From Gammaproteobacteria bacterium (lineage in GTDB: Bacteria > Pseudomonadota > Gammaproteobacteria > Nevskiales > Nevskiaceae), in NCBI GenBank assembly GCA_026398875.1, contig JAPLSB010000017.1, positions 186,001 to 250,000 on the forward strand: a DNA stretch of 64,000 nt, read 5' to 3'. The notes under the pieces were generated by a model that was not told the origin of the DNA, did not search any database, and saw only the letters and a list, made by a program, of their open reading frames with translations. This document shows, piece after piece, positions 35,050-38,047 of this stretch. The position numbers and the translations under genes are program-made. Each line of letters opens with the position of its first letter. The stretch's first letter is position 1.

Positions 35050-36462
35050 ATGTCCAACACTGCCAGCAAGTGGGTCGCCGGCCTCTTCATCGTCGGCGCG
35101 CTGGGCGTCGGCGTGCCGTGGTCCATCGGTCAGAAAGTCGAATCCGACTTCCGCGCCGCGATTGCAGCCGCGCCGGATCACTACCCGTATCCGGTGAGCC
35201 TGCTGCGCTACGAGCGCGGGCTGTTCTCGTCGGTCGCCGAGACGCAGCAGATGTTCGATATCGGCCCTGATCCGGACGACATCACCATCGACGATGACGG
35301 CAATCCGGTGATGCCCCCGAGCCGCCTCGTGCCGCTGACCCTGCACCACGCGATCAGTCACGGGCCGCGGCTCGATGGCATCCGGCTGGCGCGCTTCGTC
35401 AACACGCTGAAACTGGAGGACAAGTTGCAGAAGGCCGTCAGCCGCGTGTTCGGCACGGCCGAGCCGGTGACGCTGACCGTCGATATCGGCTTCGGTGGCG
35501 GCGCCAGCGGCGCGCTGGTGTCCCCGGCCGTCGATACCACCTTGCCTGCCGACGGCGACGCCAAGGCCAGCCACATCCTGTGGTCCGGACTCACTGGGCG
35601 GTTCAGCATGAACGGCGATCATCTGGTCGCCAGCCTCGATGCTCCGGGCCTGAAGATCGACGACAACGCGTTCGTGATCGGGCCCGTGACGATGAAGACC
35701 GACCTGACGGCGGTTGCTGACACCGTCTGGACCGGCACCTTCGGCAGCACGTTCGCCTCATTCAGCGCCAATGGGGCTGCGGGCGCGGTATCACTCAGTG
35801 ACCTGCATGTTGATTCCGACACCACCGATACCAGCGGCATCCTCCATTCGGGAGCCACCGTCACGTTCAAGGAGATGCGTTTCAACGAGGTCAGCGTCAG
35901 TGACAGCCGGCTGAGGCTGATGCTGGACAGGATCGGCACGCAGGCGCTGGCCGAGCTGAGCCGAACCCTGAACCGCTACACCGCCCAGCAGGCCGGCAAG
36001 ACGCCCGACGCCACCGACCTTCAGCGGATGTTCGACGCAATGAAGCCCTCGCTGGCCGCCCTTGCCACCCGCCAGCCGATCTTTGCGGTCGAGGACCTGT
36101 CATTCACGTCGCCGCAGGGCAAGGTGCAGTTCAGCGGGCAGGTGCAGTATCTCGGCGACGGCAATTTCGAGGACTTTGCAGTCGGCACCGATGTCGCCGC
36201 CGGCGCGAGACTCGCCGCACCGCTCGCGCTGATCGACCTGATGCTGCAGATGCGGGCCTCGAAAGCGGTGATTCCCGGGCCGGACGGCGAGCCGATCCAG
36301 CTCAGCGCCGAGCAGATTGCCGCGTCGGCACAGGCCAGCCTCGACGGTGCCATCGCCCAAGGCCTGCTGACCGTCGATGGCGACCGCGCCAGCACGGTCA
36401 TCGAGTTCAAGGGCGGCGCCCTGACGGTCAACGGCAAGCCGCTCGGCGCGCAACCGATCTGA
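35050..36462 (+). CDS. YdgA-family (DUF945) protein
   Basis: A 470-residue protein with one N-terminal membrane anchor (WVAGLFIVGALGVGVPWSIG), then a long beta-rich periplasmic region: YPVSLLRYERGLFSSVAET near residue 48 is the DUF945/YdgA hallmark. AAGGAG lies 7 nt before the ATG. The biochemical role of the family is not known; in E. coli YdgA is an inner-membrane protein. Flanked by mscS and followed by a strong bidirectional terminator. Confidence 0.85.
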   Translation: MSNTASKWVAGLFIVGALGVGVPWSIGQKVESDFRAAIAAAPDHYPYPVSLLRYERGLFSSVAETQQMFDIGPDPDDITIDDDGNPVMPPSRLVPLTLHHAISHGPRLDGIRLARFVNTLKLEDKLQKAVSRVFGTAEPVTLTVDIGFGGGASGALVSPAVDTTLPADGDAKASHILWSGLTGRFSMNGDHLVASLDAPGLKIDDNAFVIGPVTMKTDLTAVADTVWTGTFGSTFASFSANGAAGAVSLSDLHVDSDTTDTSGILHSGATVTFKEMRFNEVSVSDSRLRLMLDRIGTQALAELSRTLNRYTAQQAGKTPDATDLQRMFDAMKPSLAALATRQPIFAVEDLSFTSPQGKVQFSGQVQYLGDGNFEDFAVGTDVAAGARLAAPLALIDLMLQMRASKAVIPGPDGEPIQLSAEQIAASAQASLDGAIAQGLLTVDGDRASTVIEFKGGALTVNGKPLGAQPI

Positions 36463-36475
36463 GCGGCCGCGCGTG

Positions 36476-36513
36476 AAAAAGCCCCGGTGCGATCACTCGC
36501 ACCGGGGCTTTTT
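36476..36513. terminator. Bidirectional intrinsic terminator
   Basis: A perfect stem AAAAAGCCCCGGTGCGA / TCGCACCGGGGCTTTTT with a TCAC loop. T-runs exist on both strands, so it stops the YdgA-like gene (plus) and the small lysine-rich gene (minus). Confidence 0.92.
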
Positions 36514-36531
36514 CGTGGCGTCGGCGAAGGC

Positions 36532-36633
36532 TTACTTCGCCTTCTTCTTCGCCTGCTTTTCCGCCTTCTTTTCCTTCATCGTCTTCAGCGGCGCCTTCTT
36601 CTCGTTCTTCTTGCTGTCCATGCCTTTGGCCAT
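36532..36633 (-). CDS. 33-residue lysine-rich protein
   Basis: ATG at 36633 to TAA at 36532, 33 residues, of which 14 are Lys; it begins MAKGMDSKKNEKKAP and ends KQAKKKAK. The signals are good: GGAG lies 8 nt before the ATG on the minus strand, and a strong terminator stands 19 bp after the stop. The repeated KTMKEKKAEK pattern suggests one basic helix. The composition fits an RNA- or DNA-binding or ribosome-associated peptide, but that is inference. I believe similar tiny Lys-rich genes occur in other Proteobacteria but could not check. Confidence 0.7.
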   Translation of the reverse strand: MAKGMDSKKNEKKAPLKTMKEKKAEKQAKKKAK

Positions 36634-36677
36634 GGTCGTGCTCCGGTGGTTGCGTGGTGGTTGGAATCTAGTTCAAG

Positions 36678-36736
36678 TCAGCGTGCGTCGCGGTTGGAAC
36701 CGGCCCTGAGGCCACACCGTTCAGGCGAATGAAGCG
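36678..36736 (-). repeat. Degenerate copy of the argG 3' end
   Basis: Positions 36678-36735 align with 36830-36888, the last 19 codons and stop of argG, in the same orientation with 47 of 59 matching columns and one single-base gap. On the minus strand it still reads FIRLNG, then after the frameshift GLRAGSNRDAR and stop, against [18 protein letters not shown] in argG. It lies about 95 bp after the real argG stop. Confidence 0.7.
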
Positions 36737-36822
36737 GCAGTGCGAGCCCTCTGGCGAGGGGCCCATCGCGTTTTTCGATGGGATCGCCAGCAAGGCGAGC
36801 GCTGCCAGAGGGCTTCATTCGC
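36725..36822. repeat. Nested palindrome between the two argG tails
   Basis: Three nested inverted repeats: outer GCGAATGAAGC (36725-36735) with GCTTCATTCGC (36812-36822), middle GCCCTCTGGC (36746-36755) with GCCAGAGGGC (36804-36813), inner CCCATCG (36762-36768) with CGATGGG (36776-36782). The whole could fold as a long hairpin or cruciform. It lacks a flanking T-run, so it is not a standard terminator. Confidence 0.7.
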
Positions 36823-36829
36823 GCCGGCC

Positions 36830-38047
36830 TCAGCGCGCGTCGCGGTTGGCGCCGGTCCGCAGGCGCAGACCATTGAGGCGGATAAAGCCCTCGGCATCCT
36901 TCTGGTTGTACGCGCCGCGATCGTCCTCGAAGGTCGACAGCGTGGCGTCGAACAGCGAATCCTTCGAACGGCGACCGAGGTTGTAGACAGCGCCCTTGTA
37001 CAGCTTCAGGCGCACGTCGCCGTTGACGCGCTGCTGCGAATCGTCGATCAGCGCCTGCAGCATGCGGCGCTCCGGGCTCCACCAGTAGCCGTTGTAGATC
37101 AGGCTGGCGTACTTCGGCATCAGCTCGTCCTTCAGGTGCGCCTGTTCACGGTCGAGGCACAGCGATTCGATCGCGCGATGCGCCTTAAGCAGGATCGAGC
37201 CGCCCGGGGTTTCGTAGCAGCCGCGCGACTTCATGCCGACGTAGCGGTTCTCGACCAGATCCAGCCGACCGATGCCGTGCTTGCCACCGAGCGCGTTCAA
37301 GCGATCAAGAATCTGGAACGGTGTGCCGGCCACGCCATTGATGGCGACCGCATCACCCTTTTCGAAGCTGACGGTGATCTCCTCGGCTTCGTTCGGTGCC
37401 TCCTCCGGGTTCTTGGTCCAGCGCCAGATGTCATCCGGCGGGCACCACCACGGATCTTCCAGACCGCCGCCTTCGTACGAGATGTGCAGCGCGTTGGCGT
37501 CCATCGAATACGGACTGCCGCCGCCCGGCTTCTTGGCAATCGGAATCTCGTGCTTCGCCGCGTAGGCCAGCAGCGACTCGCGCGAGTTCAGATCCCACTC
37601 GCGCCACGGTGCGATGACCTTCACCCCCGGCCACAGCGCGTAGGCGCCGAGCTCGAAGCGAACCTGGTCATTGCCCTTGCCGGTGGCACCGTGGCTGATC
37701 GCGTCACAACCGGTCTGGCGCGCAATCTCGACCAGCCGCTTGGCGATCAGCGGGCGGGCGATCGACGTGCCGAGCAGGTATTCGCCTTCGTAGACGGCGT
37801 TGGCGCGGAACATCGGGAACACGAAGTCGCGAGCGAATTCCTCGCGCAGGTCGTCGATGAAGATTTCCTTGACGCCCAGCTGCTGCGCCTTCGGCCGCAC
37901 ATGGTCAAGTTCCTCGCCCTGGCCGATGTCGGCGGTGAAGGTCACGACCTCGCAGCCATAGGTGTCCTGCAACCACTTGAGGATGACGGAGGTGTCGAGG
38001 CCGCCGGAATAGGCGAGCGCGACTTTGCGGACCTGGGTTTTGCTCAT
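36830..38047 (-). CDS. argG: Argininosuccinate synthase
   Basis: A 405-residue enzyme that joins citrulline and aspartate with ATP in arginine synthesis. The ATP-pyrophosphatase P-loop [14 protein letters not shown] (12-25), [36 protein letters not shown] and the citrulline-binding YGCEV and [13 protein letters not shown] segments are intact. The length and start are normal. A TATAAT -10 lies about 42 bp upstream. The gene stands alone, facing away from rnt, and its 3' end has been partly copied downstream. Confidence 0.97.

Follow-up and report, generated by a model that had tools for sequence, protein, structure and literature searches.

The window analysed here, a stretch of DNA of 64,000 nt, holds a small lysine-rich protein gene on its minus strand at 36532..36633 (read from 36633 down to 36532, ATG to TAA with the stop included), and its 33-residue product is MAKGMDSKKNEKKAPLKTMKEKKAEKQAKKKAK, of which 14 residues are lysine. 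Its upstream neighbour on the same strand is argG, encoding argininosuccinate synthase (36830..38047, minus strand), and a DUF945 gene (35050..36462, plus strand) converges on it from the other side. The Shine-Dalgarno sequence GGAG (36641..36644, minus strand) stands 7 nt before the ATG, within a block upstream of the start codon, CCACCGGAGC, that is identical in all nine argG-linked copies aligned from the same genus. Beyond the stop lies an intrinsic-terminator-like hairpin (36475..36514, minus strand) with an 18-bp stem, a 4-nt loop and a T run on both strands; since it is placed between two converging genes, the DUF945 gene probably uses it as well. When folded, the 69 nt of the terminator region reach -40.7 kcal/mol (z -7.15, with none of 200 shuffles as good), and by eye the stem is kept in the same-genus copies despite base changes. 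A consensus scan near the gene listed no sigma-70-like promoter, and this hairpin was not listed by the same scan. The original prediction of an open reading frame with ATG, GGAG and TAA, of fourteen lysines in 33 residues and of a strong terminator was therefore borne out in each of these elements, the strand being minus.

The end of argG has features of its own. Its 3' end is partly duplicated at 36678-36864 (35 nt, 83%, spacing 152), the duplication flanks an imperfect palindrome of ~100 nt (121-nt fold, -66.7 kcal/mol, z -5.05), and in two of the copies, L002 and L009, the argG frame stops 46-47 nt before the peptide gene; taken together, these point to a REP- or MITE-like element that may have been inserted at the argG 3' end.

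Coding evidence

Selection was measured on the nine copies that keep argG as a neighbour (L002-L010, the window copy being L003), excluding five same-genus copies that are more divergent and located elsewhere (L014, L017-L019, L021). The pooled pN/pS in frame is 0.10, the other two sense frames give 3.35 and 4.56 (4.01 for one of them with stops handled otherwise) and hold 18 and 5 stops across the nine copies, and the variable columns fall 4/2/12 on codon positions 1/2/3. All three antisense frames are open in the nine copies, with pN/pS of 1.77, 0.22 and 4.09; the frame at 0.22 is the sole one not well separated from the coding frame, and distant relatives were traced for the sense frame only. 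Across the seven other loci where the DUF945 protein was found, that protein is 36-62% identical and the peptide 91-100%.

One could argue from the open antisense frames, and from sub-threshold Rfam sRNA matches around the terminator, that the frame is a chance one over a terminator-bearing intergenic region, or that the region encodes an sRNA. The in-frame pN/pS and the persistence of the same reading frame across phyla make this barely credible, and the sRNA candidates were rejected: Xoo2, sX6, ncS01 and the other Rfam matches fall below the gathering score, and 20 related loci searched at that score gave only a cobalamin riboswitch, elsewhere, and nothing near the gene. This is very probably a real gene, usually in single copy, and we infer that it is translated. 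Purifying selection in frame, distant relatives in the same frame, their Shine-Dalgarno cores and the lack of a Pfam or NCBIfam family, though not amounting to direct proof, strongly support the suggestion that a short gene had been overlooked here and is really made; conservation of the frame in related genomes, on which the gene had been left to stand or fall, was examined and found, so that the claim is not refuted.

Family features and distribution

Membership of the family was taken to require a short open reading frame with the core motif, together with purifying selection, and the window protein has both (selection over the nine same-genus loci). It very probably belongs to an uncatalogued family of lysine-rich proteins of ~29-47 residues with the core KKxxKKxPxKTxKEKxxxK. 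Neither Pfam nor NCBIfam holds a family that the window protein or 37 relatives match above cut-off (the weak Pfam matches among the 37 members are HTH_33 at E 0.082 and SseC at E 0.98, in one member each), none of 112 members matches PHROGs at E <= 0.1, which leaves no phage protein family, and a tblastn search against plasmids and phages gave no match, under a low-complexity filter that may hide such a query. The main texts of a literature with few subscription papers, searched by core fragments of 8-13 residues or by topic, contained nothing on the family; one paper on Xanthomonas (PMC5559785) reports 30 new proteins, 25-820 aa in length, and the lysine-rich protein may be one of them.

In an alignment of 37 members assembled free of any pattern, M1, K12, K13, E21, K22 and K26 are invariant, and K3, K9, P15, T18 and K29 occur in at least 90% of members; in loci picked by the pattern, which itself fixes K9, K12, K13, P15, K17, T18, K20, E21 and K22, constancy at those positions is uninformative. 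Over 112 members the median length is 34, the net charge +10 and the lysine content 38%, with no Cys or Trp, and 111 of the 112 have S, A, G or T at position 2, a small residue from which one may conclude that the initiator Met is probably removed. AlphaFold, on 62 sequences, predicts helices at 3-13 and 19-32 (mean pLDDT 81.5, pTM 0.32), a pTM that defines no packing of the two helices, and in this predicted fold T18-x-x-E21, following P15, can be read as a helix capping box. S takes the place of T18 in L209 and L217, and N does so in L210, L218 and the weak Actinomycetota matches; since S and N are good N-cap residues, these substitutions fit a capping box. A divergent subgroup (L217-L226), drawn from several families of the class, starts with a stretch like MSKEQKSNKE and carries PxLT or PxLN as its core.

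Composition of this kind also invites the reading that the peptide is a nucleoid or general polyanion binder, similar to a short histone-H1 tail, which would compact DNA, RNA or polyphosphate and have no specific ribosomal role. Bacterial histone-H1-like lysine tails of the HctB and AlgP type are rich in Lys, Pro, Ala and Thr, as is the family, the stretch KKKPAKT resembles such tails, and a net charge of +10 with 38% Lys would suit a polyanion binder, as would neighbours that change between loci. However, H1-like tails are repetitive, whereas the family has one non-repetitive core and a nearly fixed length, with P15, T18 and E21 fixed in the pattern-free sequences; beyond the two weak matches above, the 37 members give no Pfam match at E <= 1, and none to H1-like tails; and RNA and ribosome genes are found among the neighbours. 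We consider this reading unlikely, if worth weighing.

With regard to distribution, the genome of the window is counted in the tally of every draw that includes it. The single-sequence query matched 28/61 genomes at E <= 0.01, an 18-member profile matched 41/274 genomes of the class and 12/200 of the phylum draw, and a 112-member profile matched 45/85 genomes of the order, 44/252 of the class, 39/247 of Bacteroidota and 18/96 of Verrucomicrobiota, with one copy in most carrier genomes; two copies occur in G143, G170, G213, G697 and G778. Of 119 Actinomycetota genomes 13 match, the best at 1e-9, the next at 3e-6 and eleven at 4e-5 to 5e-4, some of them different in form. A decoy profile of 44 reversed members, which has fewer rows than the real profile and for which no genome is known to match, found 0/252 class genomes against 44/252 for the real one. 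The family is patchy even at close range, 4 of 17 other same-genus genomes being without a copy. If the reading proposed here is true, proteins present in roughly one genome in six, over draws from one class and two phyla, have been missed by the family catalogues, presumably because of their length of ~34 residues.

A scan of named genomes with the degenerate DNA pattern KxxKKxPxKTxKEK, which yields a sample and not a count, gave at least 118 loci in at least 18 phylum-level groups as judged from titles and ranks, Bacteroidota (43) and Pseudomonadota (42) leading among the matches listed; the relatives that had been expected in Proteobacteria do exist there, but they extend to other phyla too. 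Twelve of the groups hold a single locus and three loci are unplaced among the 118 matches listed, and because many loci come from MAGs the single-locus phyla may be binning errors. Under a start-codon rule that prefers ATG, a Shine-Dalgarno sequence and nearness, and is thus biased to short products and Shine-Dalgarno sites, the chosen starts give 29-47 residues in 117 of the 118 matches listed (L114 is cut by the locus edge), and a Shine-Dalgarno core precedes 39/40 Pseudomonadota, 1/43 Bacteroidota and 23/32 other copies among them; Bacteroidota genes usually lack Shine-Dalgarno sites. From stop to stop, 92 of these 118 frames are shorter than 60 codons and 106 shorter than 100, and longer products are possible in the 12 of 100 codons or more. 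Terminator-like hairpins follow 40/112 copies, compared with 14/112 in an upstream control stretch. A tree of 115 of the short proteins is poorly resolved with phyla mixed, and transfer is neither shown nor excluded by it.

Neighbouring genes and the RIO1 kinase

The neighbourhood survey covered 163 loci, that is, 186 less 7 that failed the motif rule and 16 near-duplicates, with 147 upstream and 146 downstream neighbours called by an ORF composition score and not by a gene finder. The peptide gene mostly sits alone; a same-strand upstream neighbour exists at 94 loci, at a median gap of 155 nt and within 40 nt at only 3. Pfam counts upstream include ABC_tran_Xtn 3, S4 3, DEAD 2 and CSD 2 (177 families seen), those downstream include RIO1 6 and SelO 4 (200 families seen), and a Peptidase_M20 count of 8 is Flavobacterium synteny; in a distal control, which at 105 genes is smaller than the near set of 293, RIO1, SelO, ABC_tran_Xtn, S4, CSD and DEAD each number fewer than 2 and tRNA_bind numbers 2. 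An ABC-F-like gene is present no more than 1.3 kb away in L046, L091, L130, L149, L160 and L183, four of these loci being Lysobacterales, and an S4-domain protein gene lies within 1.4 kb in L089, L104, L106, L111 and L159, all Lysobacterales. The gene of the protein adenylyltransferase SelO adjoins the peptide gene or is found within 1 kb of it in L066, L091, L114, L149 and L160, of which four are Lysobacteraceae, in Lysobacterales, and one is another genome. With the S4, SelO and most ABC-F cases coming from Lysobacterales, these associations are partly inherited gene order. A functional link to argG was also considered and rejected: argG adjoins 9/28 single-sequence-match loci, all in the window's genus, and in L017 and L019, of the same genus, the peptide gene follows a purA-like gene instead.

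Cold-shock genes adjoin the peptide gene in L033, L035 and L154, and these neighbours, together with the composition and the patchy distribution, could be taken to mean that the peptide is a hydrophilic protectant against cold, desiccation or osmotic stress, disordered in solution and with no single partner. Its positional conservation is sharp, hydrophilic stress protectants being usually less conserved by position, and we regard the idea as distinctly improbable.

The RIO1-type kinase gene is the immediate neighbour at 7 of the 163 loci, in four lineages in all: L015, L023, L024 and L029 belong to the window's order, L098 is a Burkholderiales MAG, L081 is titled Deltaproteobacteria and ranked Myxococcota, and L138 is a Deferrisomatales MAG ranked Thermodesulfobacteriota. 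RIO1 also lies 0.9-2.4 kb away in L104, L108, L111 and L159, all Lysobacterales. The three kinases tested (L081, L098, L138) are assigned above the NCBIfam cut-off to the PA4780 family of RIO1-like kinases, and the helicase of L081 to DbpA. In L081 the DbpA, peptide and kinase genes adjoin; in L098 a gap of 4 nt separates the peptide gene from the kinase gene, both on the same strand, and diverging from the two is a DbpA-like gene, cut by the locus end, that shares 68% identity over 161 residues with the DbpA of L081; and in L210 a DEAD-box gene, the peptide gene and RIO1 stand in a row. DbpA-like and RIO1-like genes are close together in L216 (G264:C137) as well, ~12 kb from the peptide gene, so that DbpA and RIO1 may also be paired in the peptide's absence.

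Co-location was examined in 80 hand-picked carriers with a RIO1 threshold of E <= 1e-10, at which RIO1 is present, in one copy each, in 46 and absent in 34. Both genes are no more than 1 kb apart in 14 of the 46, namely 12 genomes of the window's order plus G546 and G552; these two had been chosen because the link was already known, and are excluded from the remaining 44, where 12 cases compare with 0.036 expected from random placement. All 12 fall among the 19 genomes of the window's order, against 0 of the 25 outside it (the two known cases uncounted, and G264 having the genes 12 kb apart), and 4 of the 12 were known beforehand (G018, G021, G026, G045) and 8 are new. Of the order's carriers outside the genus, 18/31 entered the test; no RIO1 was seen within at most 1.5 kb on each side in 8 of the 13 left out (L012, L013, L016, L020, L022, L025, L026, L028), nor at the 14 same-genus loci over the same distance, and the window genome carries RIO1 and the peptide gene on different contigs. 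Within the order, where the two share a strand, RIO1 follows the peptide gene at 16-104 nt or precedes it at 119-202 nt, and elsewhere it is divergent or convergent; this variety suggests rearrangement while the link to the peptide gene was kept. Among the 101 pattern-picked loci outside Lysobacterales in the matches listed, RIO1 is within 1 kb at 3, with 0.079 expected if every genome has one (Poisson P 8e-5); given that RIO1 was picked after viewing ~377 family rows (177 + 200), a fair P is nearer 0.03. The RIO1 link is far above chance, yet it is confined to part of the order and its cases are not independent.

It is tempting to tie the peptide simply to the PA4780-type RIO1 kinase, as its cofactor, its inhibitor or its substrate, considering that it adjoins RIO1 in several lineages and orientations, at 4 nt in L098, and that T18 is surrounded by basic residues. 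However, 34 of the 80 carriers have no RIO1, and a substrate role has to contend with the change of T18 to N, which is not phosphorylatable, in L210, L218 and the weak Actinomycetota matches; this reading, too, seems to us quite unlikely. A literature search that took in few subscription papers returned no paper on the role of the PA4780-type or any bacterial RIO1-like kinase.

A possible role at the ribosome

The charge, the predicted fold and the neighbours lead us to propose an accessory peptide that binds RNA in ribosome assembly or in translation, a reading for which the evidence is in our judgement about evenly poised. In such a mechanism a flexible and strongly basic N-terminal arm would contact rRNA, and a short K/E-rich helix, begun at T18 by the predicted T-x-x-E capping box after P15, would dock along RNA or a ribosomal subunit; the peptide, mostly made from a transcript of its own, would act in trans and might work at a step shared with the PA4780-type RIO1 kinase, the DbpA helicase, the S4-domain protein, the ABC-F ATPase or the cold-shock protein. 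Binding to RNA or the ribosome and a part in assembly are thus putative, and the helix and its capping box predicted. The original prediction had offered an RNA- or ribosome-binding peptide, and the charge, the predicted helix and neighbours of the RIO1-type kinase, DbpA, ABC-F, S4-domain and cold-shock kinds lend it support that is circumstantial. Counting against an assembly role are the many genomes without the gene and the RIO1-less 34 of 80 carriers, and the frequent absence of the gene makes a place among the core structural proteins of the ribosome seem unlikely. PDB profile searches, over solved species that are not necessarily carriers, returned a single chain, an S19 that matched across 13-16 residues at E 0.74 and 1.5, and since no relative appears there the peptide has not been modelled in any ribosome, which also weighs against assembly.

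In archaea and eukaryotes a step of subunit maturation depends on RIO1. One could go further, tentatively and with more doubt than conviction, and imagine that this uncatalogued gene of ~100 nt encodes a widespread, unnamed bacterial ribosome-assembly peptide working with DbpA and the PA4780-type RIO1 kinase, a counterpart in working principle of that RIO1-dependent maturation. If this were true, bacterial RIO1-like kinases would gain a candidate partner, and a role in maturing ribosomes would become directly testable in laboratory species that are harmless; carriers of this sort include Janthinobacterium lividum (L128), Rhodanobacter panaciterrae (L111) and Shewanella atlantica (L175).

Among known kinds, the small basic peptides of the ribosome, bS22 and bL37 among them, come nearest, although by sequence the peptide belongs to neither. 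According to the available portions of PMC10085706, bS22 and bL37 occur in Cutibacterium acnes and mycobacteria and bS22 also in the Flavobacterium johnsoniae ribosome. The bS22/mS38/eL41-type peptide, noticed through unassigned cryo-EM density and 33 aa long in C. acnes in the same portions of that source (PMC10085706), has the size of the window peptide and is likewise helical, in our case by prediction, and strongly basic. The accessible text further describes growth inhibition of three tested species by added bS22 and of the two Gram-positive ones among them by added bL37 (PMC10085706), which can be counted in favour of a small toxin or of a cationic peptide that is secreted or antimicrobial, as can the shortness and positive charge of the window peptide. 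The sequences inspected by eye have no hydrophobic leader and a single partner gene across lineages is absent, leaving an antimicrobial or toxin role very improbable.

Returning to the comparison with ribosomal peptides, bS22/mS38 (AURKAIP1/COX24 domain) gave no sequence match to the family, either in Pfam with 37 members or in PDB profiles at E <= 10, and the family differs in being Lys/Glu-rich with a P15, T18, E21 core. The binding site of bS22/mS38 lies between the neck of the 30S subunit and helix H67. The likeness to bL37 is that of a tiny peptide which, in the portions of PMC10085706 at hand, occurs in some bacterial ribosomes and is absent from others; PDB profile searches gave no match to the solved bL37 chains, and the same portions report bL37 from C. 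acnes and mycobacteria, whereas the clear matches of the window family are in Pseudomonadota, Bacteroidota, Verrucomicrobiota and others.
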